This document shows positions 12,910 to 25,461 of a DNA stretch of 32,413 nt, one piece after another; the stretch's first letter is position 1; every line of letters starts with the position of its first letter. The notes below the pieces were generated by a model. That model saw only the letters and a list, made by a program, of their open reading frames with translations. It was not told the origin of the DNA and searched no databases. The DNA lies in the NCBI GenBank assembly GCA_021803655.1, contig JAJZLK010000033.1, positions 1-32,413 of the forward strand, given 5' to 3'. The translations under genes and the position numbers were made by a program. The stretch is from Thermoplasmata archaeon. Its GTDB lineage: Archaea; Thermoplasmatota; Thermoplasmata; Thermoplasmatales; Thermoplasmataceae.

Positions 12910-12920
12910 AAAAAACAAAG
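12910..12920 (-). terminator. T-run after tRNA-Arg
   Basis: On the minus strand CTTTGTTTTTT follows the tRNA discriminator base directly, a typical oligo-T stop for archaeal tRNA transcription. Confidence 0.5.
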
Positions 12921-12995
12921 CGGGCGCGGGGGGATTCGAACCCCCGATCTACAGCTTAGGAGGCTGTTGCCATATCCAGACTGGGCCACGCGCCC
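12921..12995 (-). tRNA. tRNA-Arg (CCT anticodon)
   Basis: A complete 75-nt cloverleaf on the minus strand. The acceptor GGGCGCG pairs with CGCGCCC and the discriminator is G. There is a 3-bp D stem with GG in the loop. The anticodon stem ACAGC/GCTGT holds the loop CTCCTAA, i.e. anticodon CCT, reading AGG. The T arm is GGGGG-TTCGAAT-CCCCC. The 3' CCA is not encoded. AGG is a major arginine codon in this window. A TATA element (minus TTTTAAATAT, 13021-13030) lies about 30 nt before the 5' end. Confidence 0.95.
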
Positions 12996-17865: not shown

Positions 17866-17890
17866 CTTAAATAGATTAGTAGCATACTAA
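17866..17890 (+). promoter_or_regulatory. promoter and palindromic operator of the DtxR-type gene
   Basis: A TATA element (CTTAAATA, 17866-17873) is followed at 17876-17890 by the perfect palindrome TTAGTA-GCA-TACTAA, ending 4 nt before the ATG at 17895. The TTAG…CTAA outer bases match DtxR-type half-sites. A protein bound here would block transcription initiation, suggesting autoregulation. Confidence 0.6.
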
Positions 17891-17894
17891 ACAG

Positions 17895-18305
17895 ATGAGT
17901 GGAGACCATCAATTTACAAGGAGAGAGAGGGACTGCATCCTGCTGTTAGGATCAGAACTGAGGAACGGTTTTCCCGATAGGATCTCAGATATTGCCAGGA
18001 GAATGGGGATCAAGGCTCCCACTGTAATACAGATACTGAAGAGACTTGACGTTAAGGGAATCACCAGAAGCGAGAAAGGGATGGTAATTCTGACAGACAG
18101 TGGAAGGGAGGCTCACCGCAGGATACTTGAGAATCACAGGATACTTGAATGCATATTCTACAGGAACGGAATAACGGCCAACGAATCGTGTGTGGTCGCA
18201 GGATCAATTGACTACGTAATAGATGGTGACATAATAGGCAAACTGTCGCAGAGCCTTGGTATGCCGGAAAAATGCCCCCACGGAAGACCGGTAAGGGAGG
18301 CGTGA
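17895..18305 (+). CDS. DtxR/MntR-family metal-dependent transcription regulator
   Basis: A 136-residue regulator with a winged helix (ISDIARRMGIKAPTVIQILKRLDVKGI, about residues 28-54, and the wing to about 73). It is followed by a metal-binding and dimerisation domain with the family run HRILECIFYRNG…ESCVVAGSIDYVI and LGMPEKCPHGRPV. It lacks the C-terminal SH3-like domain, as in MntR-type members. It should sense Fe(II) or Mn(II) and repress uptake genes. The message is probably leaderless, and a 15-bp palindrome covers the promoter. The next gene begins 4 nt downstream and encodes a metal-transporter-like protein, so the two form an operon. Confidence 0.88.
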   Translation: MSGDHQFTRRERDCILLLGSELRNGFPDRISDIARRMGIKAPTVIQILKRLDVKGITRSEKGMVILTDSGREAHRRILENHRILECIFYRNGITANESCVVAGSIDYVIDGDIIGKLSQSLGMPEKCPHGRPVREA

Positions 18306-18309
18306 CAGA

Positions 18310-19263
18310 GTGTACATCGATATCTGGAACCCGCAATATGCCGGATTGTACGCGGCTCTTTTCATATCATTCCTTCTCGGGATAGTCCATGGTATAACTC
18401 CGGACGAGCACACATGGCCAATCACCTTCTCGTATGCCGTTGGAAGCTATTCGGTGAAGGGAGGTGCCAAGGCAGGGCTTATCTTTTCCTCCGGATTCAC
18501 ACTTGAAAGGGCCGTACTTTCCGAGTTATCGGCACTGCTTCTTGCCGGGTTCATGCTCTCTACGCTGTTCGATGGCATAGTATATGTCGCAGTCGGGACC
18601 GTAATGGCTCTTTCCGGGTTATACATAGCAAAGAAACTGAGATACCCGCACGTGCACCAGCTGGAGAGATTCCTCAACAGGCTGCTGCATATCCACCATG
18701 ATCACGGAGACGTGGAGAAGGAGGAACTAGAACACGAAGCCAACCCGATAATCGAGAAATCGGAAGGAACATACAGGGCCGTTCCGCTGAGACTTGCTTT
18801 CTTTCATGGAATCATTGCCGGGTTCGGGTTCGGTGCCTTCGCACTGATAATTTACTTTGTCATGGCACCACAGATGCCCTGGTATCTTGGGTTCATGCCC
18901 GGGCTTCTCTTTGGACTAGGAACAATGGTAATGCAGGTGCTTGCGGGATCATTGTTTGGAAAGTGGCTGTCAAGCACAAAGAAACTCACCATGGAAGGCA
19001 TAACGATGGTAGGAAGAGGCATGAGTTCTTACGTACTCTCGTACGGGGGGCTGGCATTCGTAATAGGCGGGTTTATCGCCATACTTTATCCTCCAATCTG
19101 GAGCTACAACCTCATAACTCCTGTCAACGTGCATAACCTTCACGCACTCGGCCTGCCATTCTTCATGGTTGTATTCAGTGTCGTGATAATCGGCTTCCTC
19201 GGATATAGAATAAACGTGAAAAAGGCCATGAAAATGGGATACACGAGGAAACCAGAGACTTGA
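18310..19263 (+). CDS. membrane transporter-like protein with HxxxxDxH motif and His-rich loop (NicO/NiCoT-like)
   Basis: A 317-residue protein with about seven to eight transmembrane segments, starting at GTG 18310. The first helix ends in LGIVHGITPDEHTWPI, giving His27-x4-Asp32-x-His34, which resembles the HxxxxDH metal signature of Ni/Co transporters (NiCoT, NicO/RcnA). A loop at about residues 118-146 is rich in His and Glu (HVHQ…HIHHDHG…EHE), a typical metal-buffering loop. The DtxR-type regulator gene ends 4 nt upstream, strongly suggesting transition-metal transport. Import versus export and the metal are not determined; the family match is by motif only. Confidence 0.65.
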   Translation: MYIDIWNPQYAGLYAALFISFLLGIVHGITPDEHTWPITFSYAVGSYSVKGGAKAGLIFSSGFTLERAVLSELSALLLAGFMLSTLFDGIVYVAVGTVMALSGLYIAKKLRYPHVHQLERFLNRLLHIHHDHGDVEKEELEHEANPIIEKSEGTYRAVPLRLAFFHGIIAGFGFGAFALIIYFVMAPQMPWYLGFMPGLLFGLGTMVMQVLAGSLFGKWLSSTKKLTMEGITMVGRGMSSYVLSYGGLAFVIGGFIAILYPPIWSYNLITPVNVHNLHALGLPFFMVVFSVVIIGFLGYRINVKKAMKMGYTRKPET

Positions 19264-19307
19264 GCCGGATGATCGTGCAGCATGGCAAACTCTCATGATA
19301 TACATTA

Positions 19308-19354
19308 GCCGTATAACTATGTAGAACTATAAATAGTATAAGCAGTTATACGGC
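19308..19354 (+). promoter_or_regulatory. 47-bp dyad promoter of the MFS exporter gene
   Basis: Perfect 11-bp arms, GCCGTATAACT (19308-19318) and AGTTATACGGC (19344-19354), flank the TATA box. Concentric with them is a smaller palindrome, ACTAT-AA-ATAGT (19326-19337), which is itself the TATA core (TATAAATAG). The gene's ATG is at 19362, about 30 nt after the TATA centre, so the downstream arm lies between the TATA box and the leaderless start. Confidence 0.7.
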
Positions 19355-19361
19355 ATTATCC

Positions 19362-20567
19362 ATGCTCCCATCTGGTTCATCCAACCCGGAGAGAAATTTC
19401 AGACTGGTCGTTCTTCAACTCGGAATATCCACCTTCGCATCCTCGATTTTCGTTATTTCCATACTGTGGATATCCATTTCTGCGACAGGATCAGCGGTGA
19501 TTACCGGGATCACAAGCAGCCTGATGGTTGCGCCGCTGATTATCGGGTTCGTGATTGGGGCTTTTGTTGACCGGGTAGTGAGGAAGAGACTCCTCGTGAT
19601 AATGATCTCTATCGGAAGAGGAATAGCCTCTCTCCTTCTTCTTCCTGCTGCGGTGCTTGGGAACTCATTGCCTGCAATCCTCTTTCTCTTTGCCAGCGCA
19701 ATTATCTATGGCCTGACCATGGCAATGATCGCGCCAGCCAGGATGATACTGAGCAGGAACTTCCTCAGGCAGAATGTGTTCATCAAGGGGATGTCCTTCA
19801 TGAACGTTGTGAGTTATTCCTCCAGGATAATGGGATACGCCGCATCAGCCATTCTAATGACATGGAAATTGGACATCGGAATAATTCTCATGTCCGCCAT
19901 CTTCTTCCTGTCAGCGATTCCGGTGGTTTTCCTGCCGGCGATGAATGGCGAGCTGTCCCACAGAGAGGGATTCTCGGCAAGCCTGAGGAAAGGATTCAGG
20001 CTTGTGAAGAACTCGGCGATGGTTTCACAGATCATTTTCATTTTTGTCGCTTCAGGGTTCTTCCTCGGTATGTCAGATACTGTCCTTACAGTTACTGTCA
20101 GGAAAACGCTGAACCTCGATGCCATGTTTCTCAGCACGATATTCATAGCCACGTCACTAGGAGGAATAGCCGGATCGATACTGATCTCCAAGCTGAAAGG
20201 AGCTGCCGGAAAGAGGCTTGTGATAGGCTACCTTGTTTCCGGATTTTCCCTGCTCGTGGCAGGGCTATTCATGAAGATTGTCATAGTCGTTCCCATGATG
20301 TTTCTGGTTGGGATATCATCCGGTCTCGCGTCCCCGACCATAACCACGCTGCTCTTTTCCAGTGTGGATAAGGAGAATATCGGGAGAATACAGGGTTTAA
20401 TGGATACTTTCGGGTTTTCATTTAATTCCATGTCTGCAGCACTGGCCGGTTTCATTATATTTCTCCTCACTCCATTCTACGTGTTTCTGTGCATGTCAGC
20501 GGGCCTCATCATCCTTGCAATGAGCATCTCACGCCTGAGAACCGTGAGTGCCGCGATGTTGACATGA
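19362..20567 (+). CDS. major facilitator superfamily transporter (probable exporter)
   Basis: A 401-residue, 12-helix MFS protein. The loop between helices 2 and 3 carries GAFVDRVVRKRLL, a version of the MFS signature GxxxDRxxRKxxL, and SPTITTLLFSSVDKENIGRIQGLMDT lies in the second half. The fold resembles the drug:H+ antiporter-type or EntS-like exporters; the substrate is unknown. The mRNA should start at the ATG, since a TATA box sits about 30 nt upstream. A large inverted repeat around that TATA box indicates tight control, perhaps by the substrate through a repressor encoded elsewhere. No SD motif precedes the start. Confidence 0.88.
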   Translation: MLPSGSSNPERNFRLVVLQLGISTFASSIFVISILWISISATGSAVITGITSSLMVAPLIIGFVIGAFVDRVVRKRLLVIMISIGRGIASLLLLPAAVLGNSLPAILFLFASAIIYGLTMAMIAPARMILSRNFLRQNVFIKGMSFMNVVSYSSRIMGYAASAILMTWKLDIGIILMSAIFFLSAIPVVFLPAMNGELSHREGFSASLRKGFRLVKNSAMVSQIIFIFVASGFFLGMSDTVLTVTVRKTLNLDAMFLSTIFIATSLGGIAGSILISKLKGAAGKRLVIGYLVSGFSLLVAGLFMKIVIVVPMMFLVGISSGLASPTITTLLFSSVDKENIGRIQGLMDTFGFSFNSMSAALAGFIIFLLTPFYVFLCMSAGLIILAMSISRLRTVSAAMLT

Positions 20568-20680
20568 GGAAGTAAGCATTGGAATTGAAAATCGGCCGCT
20601 TTTTCCGGACACTTTAAATGTGGACTTCCAGAACCCTATCATTATCGGAATTATTTAGACGGAATAGCAGATACTCCACC

Positions 20681-21220
20681 ATGCGGACGATAAACCTCAA
20701 GGATCAGGACGTTGAGATCTTTGCACCTATTACCGAAGAATGGGCAGAAACGATTTCACGACTGGCCAATGACAAATACGTCCGGGATAATATCGGCAGT
20801 CATTCCTTCCCATTCCCGTACGGGACAGAGGATGCCATGGGCTTCATCACAAAGAATCGGATGGACGGGTCAAAGCCGTTCGCCGTTGACTTCAGGATCA
20901 TGGTGAACTCGAGCATGGCTGGCGTAATCGGGCTGAGCGAGATAGATTACACAGACAGGAAAGCACACATAGGATACTGGATCGCAAAAGAATTCAGGGG
21001 GAGAGGCATAGCAACCAAGGCAACGAAGCTCGTCATGGGATATGCACAACAGGAACTGGGGATCAGGAGGCTGTTCACGAAGGTCCTTGCGACCAATCCC
21101 GCATCTGCAAGGGTTCTGCTGAAGTGCGGATTCGTGCTTGAAGGTGTTCTCAGGGAAGATTATCTTCAGGATGGAAGATTCCTGGATTTCATGATCTTTG
21201 GGTATCTGTTTCGTCCATGA
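20681..21220 (+). CDS. GNAT-family N-acetyltransferase (RimJ/RimL-like)
   Basis: A 179-residue GCN5-related acetyltransferase. The acetyl-CoA pyrophosphate loop is FRGRGIATKA, preceded by the strand KAHIGYWIAKE and followed by TKVLATNPASARVLLKCGFVLEGVLRED, the usual RimJ/RimL/SpeG-type ending. Substrates in this group include protein N-termini, ribosomal proteins and small amines; none can be assigned here. The frame extends upstream to 20618, but ATG 20681 is preferred because a TATA-like AATTATTTAG lies about 27 nt before it and the extra residues do not look conserved. Confidence 0.85.
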   Translation: MRTINLKDQDVEIFAPITEEWAETISRLANDKYVRDNIGSHSFPFPYGTEDAMGFITKNRMDGSKPFAVDFRIMVNSSMAGVIGLSEIDYTDRKAHIGYWIAKEFRGRGIATKATKLVMGYAQQELGIRRLFTKVLATNPASARVLLKCGFVLEGVLREDYLQDGRFLDFMIFGYLFRP

Positions 21221-21369
21221 ATCTATTATATTTCGGAATTGATGGACGATGGAGAAATTAGGAAACGTCATGGATGAAAGAGAATTAACAGGGTTTCTGG
21301 AAAAACCCCCCAGGAAAAGAAGGCAAATGAGCAAGTATACAAACTCGATAGACTCCTGGAATGGAGTAA

Positions 21370-21441
21370 TGGACTGGAGGGGATTTGAACCCCTGGCCTC
21401 TTCCATGCCAAGGAAGCGATCTACCTCTGATCTACCAGCCC
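21370..21441 (-). tRNA. tRNA-Ala (GGC anticodon)
   Basis: A complete 72-nt cloverleaf on the minus strand. The acceptor GGGCTGG/CCAGTCC contains the G3-U70 pair that identifies alanine tRNA, and the discriminator is A. The D stem is GATC/GATC. The anticodon stem CTTCC/GGAAG holds the loop TTGGCAT, anticodon GGC. The T arm is AGGGG-TTCAAAT-CCCCT. CCA is not encoded. A TATA-like TTTATAGA at about 21478-21485 would give a precursor with a short 5' leader. Confidence 0.96.
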
Positions 21442-21631
21442 GTCCAGAGTTGTTATTTAACCGTGAGAGGTTCTATTTCTATAAACTTTCTGACAGCTTG
21501 GCACAGAGAGGGTTTACGTTTCCTTGATAATCATCAGACGATTCCTAGTAACCCCCTCGCATGATCCCATTTCGGCGATTCCGTAGAATACACATTGAAT
21601 CCCGTAATTCTGTCAACAGCCGTTGACATCA

Positions 21632-22424
21632 ATGTACGGCAGCGTGGATGAGACCATGAAGAGGGAGATGTACGACCGTATTGATTTCATGAACTTTCTT
21701 GATTATCCCGACAGGATTCCGGATCCCAGGACCTTATGACTGTTCCGTGAGAGGCTCTCCGGCTCCGGCATGAACAAAAAGTTATGGGACATCATATGGG
21801 ATCAATTTGAGGCGGAGGGAATACGCATAGAGAAGGGCTCGGTCCAAGATGCCATGTTAGTCCATTCCGTTCCCGGATGGAAGGAAAATGACCGGGGAAG
21901 AGAAGAGACTGGCAAAGGTGATGGCGCCAGAAAGGAAGAGACAGGCAGCGGAGGAGAGGAAGTGTTCGAGGACGAGAAGATCCAGGGATGGCACATGGAC
22001 GAAGAAGGGTTCAGCCTCCCACTTCGGCTTCAAGATCCATACGGCACAGGGTACCGATCTGCCACTCATAAGGCAGTTTGTAGTGGGCACTGTGTCCTTG
22101 CATGATTCCCTGGTTGATCTGAGCATTCCCGGTATCGTTGACTAAATGGATAAGGGGTATCATGGAGCACCATGCAGGGGTATTGACGGCACGATGGATA
22201 GTGCATCAGGGAATACTCCACTAAACGTCGATCAGGTGAGACGGAACCTGCGAATATCAAGGAAGAGATCACCGGGCGAAAGAACATATTCCGTCATCAG
22301 GATGGTCATGCATGGCGGCCATGTGTTTGTGACCATGGTGAGGAGGGCCAAGGCCATGTTCCTCTGTCTCTGTTACAACATTATCACGCTTCTCGCCATA
22401 AAAAATAGGCGTGAAGCAGCGTAA
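21632..22424 (+). pseudogene. decayed IS5-like transposase
   Basis: The remains of one transposase are spread over two frames. Frame one (from 21632) reads MYDRIDFMNFLDYPDRIPD then TL-stop-LFRERL, where the TGA at 21737-21739 replaces the expected Trp of the PDxxTLWxFRERL motif. It continues through EGIRIEKGSVQDAM. After a frameshift between about 21860 and 21960 the other frame carries RRSRDGTWTKKGSASHFGFKIHT and LHDSLVDLS, a TAA at 22143-22145, then DKGYHG and ISRKRSPGERTYSVI. The DDE-type landmarks are recognisable, but the N-terminus is missing. Terminal inverted repeats were not found, so the element's ends are unknown and it must be inactive. Confidence 0.85.
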
Positions 22425-22587
22425 GCTAAGGGAAAACAGCGGAAAATGGATTGAAAAGGGGGATCAAATAGAGGCTATTTTACCACAATCCGACCTCTTC
22501 CTGCAGGAAAATCGTTCAAAATGAAGCAAACGCCGTATGAAGGGAGAAATTTACCAGGAGGAATAGTCGTATGTTAACAACTAACAG

Positions 22588-24018
22588 TTACTTCCCGCCG
22601 CCTTGAGATGCCATCCGATCAAACATCTCCGTTATTTCCTCAACCGATTTTCCCTTTGTGACTGGCATTATCATGTAGAAGACGACAGCTGCAGCAACGG
22701 AGAGTACACCGAATACTACAAGGGAACCAGCGATGTGTATTGTGCTGTCCATGAAGGGAAAAATCTCAACAATGGCAAAGTTGGATAACCAGTCTATGAA
22801 AGCTATCAACGACGCCATGGTGCCACGGTATTCTGTCGGAAAGTACTCGCCCTGTATTATCCAACCGGTTCCACCAACACCAAAGGCGAAGAACACTATG
22901 AAGAGAGACAAGGCCACAAGCATTCCAATGTCACTGTTAGCATACTTCAGGGCAGCGCCAAGGAAACCGAACACTGCCATTCCCGTGTATCCAGTTATGG
23001 CTAAAGTCCTTCGACCAGCCCTGTCAATGAGCTTAAATCCAATATATGTGGCCGCAACGTTTATCACGGCAAATATTGAAGCCGCCTCAACCGCAAATTC
23101 CTCAGTCATTACGCTGCCGCCTCCAGTGGAACCCACAAGATGCAGGCTGCTTATTATGAACGGGCCGTAGTAGAATGGTATGTTTATTCCAGTAATCTGC
23201 TGGAACATCATGAACAGGCCCACAATGATGAATGCCCTCTTCACCCCTGGTGTCATCCGCTTTTTCCGTGCAGATGAGAGAGGATACTCCATCTTCAGTT
23301 CCGCCTCGTTTGTATCCACGCCAAGCCTTTTCAGGGATTCAACTGCCTTCTCATATTTACCTTTGAGGACAAGCCACCTTGGGGATTCCGGCATTACAAA
23401 CCTGAGTCCCAGGCCGATAAGTGAGGGAACTGCTGCTATTCCAAGCATTATCCTCCAGTCAAGGTTGAATGCCTGTGAGGGTAAGCCATAAAGAACTGCA
23501 AGCCCGATGAGGTATGAACCAAGGATGCCGACGGTAATCATCCACTGCTGCAATATGCTGAAACTGCCCCTTCTCCTCTTTGGTGCCCATTCAGAAATGT
23601 ATGCAGTTGCAATGGCCGAATCAGCGCCGACAGCAATTCCTATGAGCGTCCTTGAGACCAGCAGCATGAAGAGGTCAACAGTTACCGCTGACAGGATTGC
23701 CCCAATGCTGTAAAGAAACGCATCGAATATGAGCATGTACTTCCTGCCGTATCTGTCAATCAGACCGGCGGCAAGCAGGGCACCAACTGCAGCCCCAAGC
23801 GACACTCCGGAGAACAGGTATCCCTTGATGAACGGATTAACCGTCACATAGCTTGAGGGGAGAAAGCCTTCCACAATACCGATATTTGATGTATCATAGC
23901 CAAACAGGAATCCCCCGATCGTTGACAGAATGGTTAGAAACCAGAAGAACCTTGAGGTCTTACCGTTATCAAGCCTTTCCAGAATCCTTTCACCGGTTCC
24001 AGCGCCTGCGGTTTCCAT
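22588..24018 (-). CDS. MFS sugar porter (SP) family transporter
   Basis: A 476-residue, 12-helix sugar porter. The diagnostic motifs appear in order: GGFLFGYDTSNIG in helix 1, GLIDRYGRKYM between helices 2 and 3, PESPRWLVLKGKYEKA before the central loop, QQITGINIPFYYGP in helix 7, DRAGRRTL between helices 8 and 9, and GEYFPTEYRGTMAS with PVTKGKSVEEI near the end. It should import a sugar or polyol by H+ symport. The ATG at 24018 is about 33 nt from the centre of a TATA box that is flanked by a 7-bp inverted repeat. It lies between a dead transposase and the ZIP-like gene. Confidence 0.93.
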   Translation of the reverse strand: METAGAGTGERILERLDNGKTSRFFWFLTILSTIGGFLFGYDTSNIGIVEGFLPSSYVTVNPFIKGYLFSGVSLGAAVGALLAAGLIDRYGRKYMLIFDAFLYSIGAILSAVTVDLFMLLVSRTLIGIAVGADSAIATAYISEWAPKRRRGSFSILQQWMITVGILGSYLIGLAVLYGLPSQAFNLDWRIMLGIAAVPSLIGLGLRFVMPESPRWLVLKGKYEKAVESLKRLGVDTNEAELKMEYPLSSARKKRMTPGVKRAFIIVGLFMMFQQITGINIPFYYGPFIISSLHLVGSTGGGSVMTEEFAVEAASIFAVINVAATYIGFKLIDRAGRRTLAITGYTGMAVFGFLGAALKYANSDIGMLVALSLFIVFFAFGVGGTGWIIQGEYFPTEYRGTMASLIAFIDWLSNFAIVEIFPFMDSTIHIAGSLVVFGVLSVAAAVVFYMIMPVTKGKSVEEITEMFDRMASQGGGK

Positions 24019-24033
24019 TGTCCCAGAGCCATT

Positions 24034-24066
24034 AGCTCGGAAATCAATTTATATTTTTCCCGAGCT
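24034..24066 (-). promoter_or_regulatory. inverted repeat flanking the TATA box of the sugar porter gene
   Basis: AGCTCGG (24034-24040) and CCGAGCT (24060-24066) are perfect 7-bp arms enclosing 19 nt with the TATA box (minus strand AAAATATAAATT). The arrangement resembles the larger dyad at the MFS exporter promoter. The repeat is short enough that chance is possible. Confidence 0.4.
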
Positions 24067-24557
24067 TCGCCGTATTGTGTTTCGAACAATTGGGAAAGAA
24101 AGGTCTCTCCAACGGAAAACCAATCCTCTTTTCGACCACAAACTTGATCTTGTTGATGATTCCCAGATTGGAAGAGTTTGTTGCTTCAACGGCAGTTGAA
24201 TAATGGCCACTACACTTCAACAACCTATATTTCTGATAATGACCCGAACCATCGAATTTCCTGAAGTATAACACGCAACAGACGTCTGTTGCCACGGACG
24301 GGGATCTCCCTCTGGCCGCCAGGATTACAATGCCGCATCGGGAGCTGGTGCAGAGATCAATGTCTTGGAAATCGAGACTACAGTATAGCCATGAACCCAA
24401 AGGAGATGGTCAAGATCAGGAAACTCCAGTATGCGATCTTGGACTTCCGTGATCCCGACCCCGAAGAGAATGCCCGAGTATTCTGCAACGTAGGTGATGA
24501 GGTCTGTCGCAGCCATAGGAAAGGAAGAACCGACGGAAACCTTTCTGGAGAACCTCA
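24067..24557. other. gene-poor stretch with a perfect 18-bp palindrome
   Basis: About 490 bases between the sugar porter promoter and the ZIP-like gene contain no recognised protein. Overlapping frames exist on both strands; the only one with gene-like context is the minus-strand frame coupled to the ZIP stop, listed separately. A TTCAAC-GGCA-GTTGAA repeat is at 24185-24200 and an 18-bp palindrome at 24275-24292. Confidence 0.4.
24275..24292. repeat. perfect 18-bp palindrome
   Basis: GCAACAGACGTCTGTTGC is identical to its own reverse complement with no spacer. A TATA-like GTATAAC (24266-24272) lies just to its left on the plus strand, but no supported gene starts downstream. It could be a regulator site or a remnant of a larger element. 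Confidence 0.5.
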
Positions 24558-24558
24558 T
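24325..24558 (-). CDS. hypothetical small ORF coupled to the ZIP-like gene
   Basis: A 77-residue minus-strand frame starts with ATG at 24558, overlapping the TGA of the ZIP-like gene (GTGATG), the kind of junction seen in genuine operons here. The product (MRFSRKVSVGSSFPMAATDL… to …APAPDAAL) has no recognised domain or clear membrane segment. Frames are also open on the other strand across the same bases, so it may not be real. Confidence 0.25.
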   Translation of the reverse strand: MRFSRKVSVGSSFPMAATDLITYVAEYSGILFGVGITEVQDRILEFPDLDHLLWVHGYTVVSISKTLISAPAPDAAL

Positions 24559-25307
24559 CACAGAACATTAACGATGAAACCCAGGAGGATACCCGCCAAT
24601 ATCCCTATATAGGTAATATTCTGCAGTTTCTTTCCATCACCGTTTCTCATCATGTGCATATTCACGCTGAACATCTCAAAGATAACGATCATTAGAACAC
24701 CAGTGGCAAGGGAGTTGAAGAGTTCAAGATAGTACTTCCCTGCAAGCATGAGCCCCAGTATAGCACCGGGGACGGTAGGCATACCGCCAATCAGAAGTGC
24801 ACCTCCCACGAATGCTATGCTCTTATTTCTTGCACCAGAGAAGGTAGTGGACAATATTGCGAACCCTTCGGTTGCATTCTGCAGGGTGAATCCGATGAAG
24901 AGTATCGCAAGAAGGTACCCGGATGTGCTCACCTGGGATTCGCCCAGCAGGAGACCCTCAGTCAGGTTCTGAAGCCCTATGCCTGCGGCGATAAGGATGG
25001 TTGTTATCCCGGTATCCGGCATGTCACGGGCGGTTCTCCAGTTCTTCATTGCCAGGATAAGAAGGAATGAGAGCGCAAGACCGGCAACATATATGATTTC
25101 GCTGGTGTCGATAGTGTATTCGGCGAAGTATACCGCAGATGATTCATACACGTCCATAATTATGTAAAAGATTATCCCGATTGCCAGGGCATTCATCAGC
25201 ACAAGGCCCCTTATCTTCTTCCCCCGGTAGAAGACAAGTGGAAGGGCAACAAAAATCGAAGCGCCCATAATCACTGAGAGAAGTATGATAAAGAGGTCAG
25301 ATGCCAT
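24558..25307 (-). CDS. ZIP-like divalent metal transporter
   Basis: A 249-residue membrane protein with about eight helices and the ZIP/GufA layout. The two metal-site helices read LQNLTEGLLLG (near residue 112) and LQNATEGFAI (near 143). They keep the Asn, Glu and Gly of the family pattern HNxxEG but have Gln instead of His at both first positions, so metal preference may differ from classical Zn/Fe ZIPs. A DtxR-box-like palindrome covers its predicted transcription start, linking it to the metalloregulator encoded at 17895-18305. It is divergent from the pilus-like operon. Confidence 0.75.
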   Translation of the reverse strand: MASDLFIILLSVIMGASIFVALPLVFYRGKKIRGLVLMNALAIGIIFYIIMDVYESSAVYFAEYTIDTSEIIYVAGLALSFLLILAMKNWRTARDMPDTGITTILIAAGIGLQNLTEGLLLGESQVSTSGYLLAILFIGFTLQNATEGFAILSTTFSGARNKSIAFVGGALLIGGMPTVPGAILGLMLAGKYYLELFNSLATGVLMIVIFEMFSVNMHMMRNGDGKKLQNITYIGILAGILLGFIVNVL

Positions 25308-25326
25308 GAAGATACCGCGTTCCTAT

Positions 25327-25342
25327 TTTAGGTAAACCTAAA
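25327..25342 (-). promoter_or_regulatory. DtxR-box-like operator of the ZIP-like gene
   Basis: TTTAGGT-AA-ACCTAAA is a perfect 7-bp inverted repeat and contains TTAGGTnnnCCTAA-type half-sites as in bacterial DtxR/IdeR boxes. The TATA box (minus strand GTATTATATT, 25361-25370) is centred about 30 nt upstream, so the operator covers the predicted start site. A further CTAATTAG palindrome lies at 25346-25353. Confidence 0.7.
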
Positions 25343-25461
25343 TTCCTAATTAGTGGAGCCAATATAATACTTAGTTTCACTCAAAACAGACAACCGCAGA
25401 GTATCTGTAAACTTGATATACTGGTATTGAAAAATCCGGCTCTTTGAGTGTGCAATCAACA

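Follow-up and report, generated by a model that had tools for sequence, protein, structure and literature searches.

The stretch of DNA analysed here, referred to as the window, comprises 32,413 nucleotides of a contig from an uncultivated Thermoplasmata archaeon (JAJZLK010000033.1). It encodes a DtxR-family regulator of 136 aa (17895-18305, plus strand; recognized by pfam domain PF02742, a structure model and alignment), which has no SH3-like tail and is called SHORT in the following. On the same strand lies a transporter-like polytopic membrane protein of 317 aa (18310-19263), characterized in its sequence by an HGxTPDEHTWPITFSY motif and a His-rich loop. This SHORT-transporter operon is preceded by a TATA box (CTTAAATA, 17866-17873, plus strand), and between the box and the SHORT start codon at 17895 we found a 15-bp dyad, TTAGTAGCATACTAA (17876-17890), reading TTAGTA-GCA-TACTAA and thus of a TTAG-N7-CTAA class (operator 1).

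A ZIP-like transporter of 249 aa is encoded on the minus strand (24558-25307). Its match to pfam domain PF02535 (E=7.5e-4, 19.3 bits) stayed below the curated cut-off of 35.1 bits, and its QNLTEG and QNATEG stand at the positions of the HNxxEG motifs typical of ZIP proteins. Of 33 ZIP-like relatives, 30 carried two motifs of this QNxTEG type. Upstream of the gene lies a second dyad, TTTAGGTAAACCTAAA (25327-25342), which reads TTTAGGT-AA-ACCTAAA and contains a 14-bp TTAGG-N4-CCTAA core of the IdeR one-dimer class (operator 2). It is located 20 bp upstream of the ATG at 25307, and a TATA-like box (TATTATAT, 25362-25369, minus strand) precedes it by about 20 bp; these distances place the dyad over the expected transcription start. 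Two genomes of the same genus (G001 and G002) encode ZIP proteins above the PF02535 cut-off under the same operator class. The window further contains tRNA genes for Ala (GGC; 21370-21441) and Arg (CCT; 12920-12995), both on the minus strand.

A preliminary description of this DNA had pointed out both dyads and the one-base difference in their half-site spacing, and we could confirm both observations. The patterns TTAG-N7-CTAA and TTAG-N6-CTAA each matched three times in the whole 1.65 Mb genome versus 36 and 45 times, respectively, for the reversed control patterns, which is far from chance, and a stricter form of either motif occurred exactly once. The other genomic N6 matches were considered as regulon members and rejected, as they do not resemble promoters of metal genes. 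This whole-genome pattern search revealed no further regulon members at exact half-sites.

A short and a long DtxR paralog

The genome encodes two proteins with pfam domain PF02742, SHORT in the window and a second one, here called LONG, on contig C72 outside of it. Genes with this domain were present in 78 of 81 genomes, most of which have one SHORT and one LONG gene. A phylogenetic tree separated SHORT from two LONG clades, clade A with the C72 gene and clade B with the IdeR of Thermoplasma acidophilum.

In SHORT the metal-binding and dimerisation domain PF02742 was clearly recognized (E=2.3e-13, 50.4 bits, cut-off 27), and the N-terminal winged helix PF01325 scored below its cut-off (21.9 versus 26 bits). 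The structure model (pLDDT 89.6) matched the folds of DtxR, IdeR and MntR with TM scores of about 0.7-0.84, the best PDB match being SSO2273 of Saccharolobus solfataricus (2X4H, TM 0.84). SSO2273 is also the best match by sequence, is of similar length and agrees with SHORT at the H, E, C, D and CPHG positions, although its host belongs to a different phylum. In the literature we found, SSO2273 is encountered solely as a repressor by annotation or as a template for modelling, with no description of its operator or metal. One published table has it as an iron-dependent repressor and, two rows further down, SSO2272 as a probable membrane transporter (PMC12529230).

Residues H81, E85, C127 and H129 were invariant in the SHORT alignment and C99 was nearly so. 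These conserved Cys, His and Glu residues look like a kept metal site. SHORT is without the canonical Glu-His pair of the primary site (E105/H106 in DtxR, E102/H103 in MntR), where most sequences carry Asp-Tyr or Asp-Phe and those of family f5 Ile-Gln; a Cys is found at the H98 position. Because this pair is missing while C99, H81, E85 and CPHG are nearly invariant, it is plausible that SHORT senses a metal different from iron or manganese, and we would guess at one suited to Cys/His ligands. A recognition-helix rule for SHORT, by which Arg at the third helix position would go along with GG half-sites, was discarded, as the protein of locus L181 has this Arg and yet a TTAGT half-site.

LONG resembles IdeR more closely. 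Both PF01325 (42.4 bits) and PF02742 (68.2 bits) scored above cut-off, the Glu-His pair is present, an HASVMEMEH segment aligns with IdeR, and the protein matches IdeR sequences in PDB. Its C-terminal tail of about 75 aa showed no match to the Pfam FeoA/SH3 domains, whereas T. acidophilum IdeR does match FeoA. The latter protein (PDB 4O5V, 4O6J) stems from a relative in the same GTDB family and lies on the same LONG branch, and genome G039 encodes a protein identical to it (4O5V). It belongs to clade B, with an RQS..DE recognition helix, whereas the window genome has a clade A protein, and this clade is paired with TTAGG sites. In two genomes the LONG gene is located directly upstream of the ZIP-like gene (G032, locus L156; G048, locus L143). 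A third candidate, a PF01325 match of about 334 aa on contig C5 (G000:C5:48775, L334), was weak and does not look like DtxR; this winged-helix protein is encoded near a nucleotidyltransferase-like reading frame.

The transporter family beside SHORT

The membrane protein encoded next to SHORT could not be assigned to a family by Pfam, NCBIfam or PDB sequence searches, and its model (pLDDT 72.5) had no meaningful fold match in PDB (best E=0.25). It is nevertheless part of a large family in which the HGxTPDEHTWPITFSY motif is invariant. We found the transporter in 43 of 81 relatives, and genome contigs contained over 500 additional loci, the best 80 of which were for the most part archaeal and came from Thermoplasmata, Micrarchaeota, Marsarchaeota and Sulfolobaceae. 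A DtxR gene adjoins the transporter at the majority of the loci retrieved from relatives.

Some relatives showed weak Pfam resemblance to DsbD_2, LysE or NicO. For the nickel/cobalt permease family NicO (PF03824), 2 of 38 transporter relatives matched with a best E of 0.025, which did not place the transporter in this family. Nickel permeases carry the motif H-x4-D-H. The H-x4-D-x-H motif of the transporter resembles it, but in neither family searches nor PDB fold comparison did the window protein show a significant match to the NicO/UreH/DsbD_2/LysE-like proteins.

Dyad class matches the DtxR paralog

We compared 148 promoters from incomplete genome assemblies (54 SHORT, 59 LONG and 35 ZIP-like), with shuffled sequences providing the chance expectation (about 0.2 matches per set). 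An exact TTAG-N7-CTAA dyad was found upstream of 50 of the 54 SHORT genes and TTAG-N6-CTAA upstream of 26 of the 35 ZIP-like and 16 of the 59 LONG genes, so that both dyads of the window are conserved in related acid-loving archaea. Not a single SHORT promoter carried an N6 dyad, nor any LONG promoter an N7 dyad. The lone N7 match among ZIP-like promoters, at -87 in locus L057, is probably a chance site, and this locus also has a variant operator of its own.

The promoter geometry is likewise conserved. In relatives the N7 dyad mostly begins 10 or 13 bp past the first base of a TTTAAATA-like TATA box, and it lies 15-21 bp ahead of the SHORT start codon. It also stays with the transporter in Thermoplasma, where the transporter gene stands alone and the DtxR gene is located elsewhere (L004, L006, L007, L228, L229), which argues that operator 1 belongs to the neighbouring transporter as well. 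Among the wider loci, 42 of 80 contained an N7 dyad with exact half-sites, and at most of these 42 a SHORT gene adjoins.

At ZIP-like and LONG promoters the N6 dyads conform to TTAGG-N4-CCTAA in the sites listed. Six more ZIP genes have TAAGG-N4-CCTTA or a TCAGG half-site with unchanged N4 spacing, and TTAGG-N4-CCTAA also precedes feoAB in genome G053. Some matches in relatives were not counted as operators, being either a recurrent identical sequence without adjoining metal gene or not positioned before metal genes. A 14-bp consensus, TTAGGNNNNCCTAA, has been proposed as the site of a single IdeR dimer in Saccharopolyspora erythraea (PMC8464063; PDB 7B1Y). The ZIP dyad agrees with it exactly, whereas operator 1 does not fit this one-dimer site. 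Here the dyad stands single and isolated in an archaeal core promoter, unlike the 19-bp two-dimer box of the bacterial system.

The half-site of the ZIP dyad tracks the clade of the LONG protein. TTAGG was accompanied by clade A in 24 of 24 genomes in which a LONG gene was found, and TAAGG or TCAGG by clade B only (6 of 6), a match in all 30 informative genomes (Fisher p = 1.7e-6, ignoring relatedness) that may reflect no more than one or two evolutionary events, in two genera (g3 and g17). In the group with clade B only, those SHORT genes that we examined (L020, L179, L189) keep TTAG-N7-CTAA. In family f5 the SHORT dyad reads TTAGG-N5-CCTAA; its half-sites are those of the LONG class and the spacing alone differs. 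The spacing rule is not universal, since at two loci of TACK archaea (L272, L281) a SHORT-type gene beside the transporter has a 14-bp, N6-spaced dyad in place of the 15-bp one.

Proposed regulon assignment and its alternatives

The preliminary description had proposed that one regulator governs itself, the adjacent transporter and the ZIP-like gene, and had suggested that the one-base difference in spacing may mean different affinity. The first two targets agree with our data, because SHORT has its own dyad and this dyad stays with the transporter in Thermoplasma. The third is not supported by them: the ZIP dyad is of the other conserved class, which relatives also have at LONG promoters, and it shows a half-site that varies with the LONG clade. 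We consider it likely that the window contains parts of two separate DtxR-type metal regulons, one of SHORT with the 15-bp dyad and one of LONG with the 14-bp ZIP dyad. SHORT would most likely repress itself together with the transporter of the unnamed family, and LONG is the most probable regulator of the ZIP-like gene. For the latter, the link was drawn from the relatives, because the LONG gene on C72 has no recognisable dyad in its own promoter. Spacing appears to mark the owning paralog rather than a graded affinity, since no SHORT promoter has N6 and no LONG promoter N7, the two classes differ by spacing alone in family f5, and the half-site of the ZIP dyad changes with the LONG clade, whereas the SHORT dyads examined keep N7.

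From the promoter geometry, SHORT would bind the dyad at 17876-17890 and cover the stretch from the TATA box to the transcript start, by which transcription of its own operon would be blocked; when its metal is plentiful, less of the neighbouring transporter would be made. One LONG dimer would bind TTAGG-N4-CCTAA over the transcript start of the ZIP-like gene. The paralogs would be kept apart by the additional base between the half-sites and, in this genome, by a T instead of a G at the fifth position. Iron is our best guess for the metal of the LONG regulon, by analogy, because the same site precedes feoAB in G053.

There might also be two regulons of which that of SHORT is metal-insensitive or opposite in sense, so that the transporter would be an exporter. 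SHORT has other residues, mostly Asp-Tyr, in place of the DtxR/MntR Glu-His pair (E105/H106), and the unnamed transporter family might work in either direction, which would leave room for this reading. We regard it as unlikely, since Cys99, His81, Glu85, Cys127 and His129 vary hardly or not at all and resemble a kept metal site, and a metal-loaded repressor that acts on an uptake gene agrees well with the dyad's position over the core promoter. Equally improbable in our view is a partial overlap, in which SHORT and LONG each have a main site and cross-bind under some metal conditions; the half-sites are similar (in one family TTAGG is identical in both) and the spacing rule is broken at the two TACK loci, but the spacing classes were completely separate in the order examined. 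A single regulon, in which SHORT binds both dyads with an affinity that differs through the one-base spacing, is not supported and seems very improbable: TTAG and CTAA half-sites are common to both dyads and certain base substitutions in the half-sites are tolerated by an IdeR (PMC8464063), but no SHORT promoter among the 148 had an N6 dyad, no ZIP-like or LONG promoter had an N7 dyad at the operator position, and where the ZIP half-site changes, it does so along with the LONG clade, the SHORT dyad remaining in its class.

The assignment of two regulons yields a rule that can be tested at the sequence level, namely that two DtxR paralogs in one cell may keep separate targets by means of a single spacing base. 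It also links operators to a subfamily of short DtxR proteins that is widespread, and ties this subfamily to a large transporter-like family that is nameless in Pfam and NCBIfam. Our literature searches found no paper on this pair of N7 and N6 operators. Acidophilic archaea inhabit metal-rich water, and their metal control is little described in the literature we found. It is conceivable, although we would put it at somewhat less than even, that in acid-dwelling archaea a short DtxR subfamily with a Cys/His site responds to neither iron nor manganese but to another metal, such as nickel, cobalt or zinc, and controls this large transporter family, a single additional base in the operator insulating it from the IdeR-like paralog in the same cell.

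Sites of the N7 class were also observed in other surroundings. Besides operator 1, both other matches in the window genome belong to a single tandem pair of a 29-bp hairpin on contig C46. The two copies of this inverted repeat, CCTGCGGTTAGCATAAAACTAACCGCAGG, lie 66 bp apart (G000:C46:10580-10690, L328), one with an altered 5' end, upstream of a short AbrB-like reading frame, and the pair is possibly an operator pair or a hairpin element. Three genomes in which we did not find the transporter of the window have the N7 dyad bracketing a cluster that encodes an amino-acid-permease-like protein and two Opp/Nik-type ABC ATPases (L323 in G029, L324 in G035 and L325 in G027).
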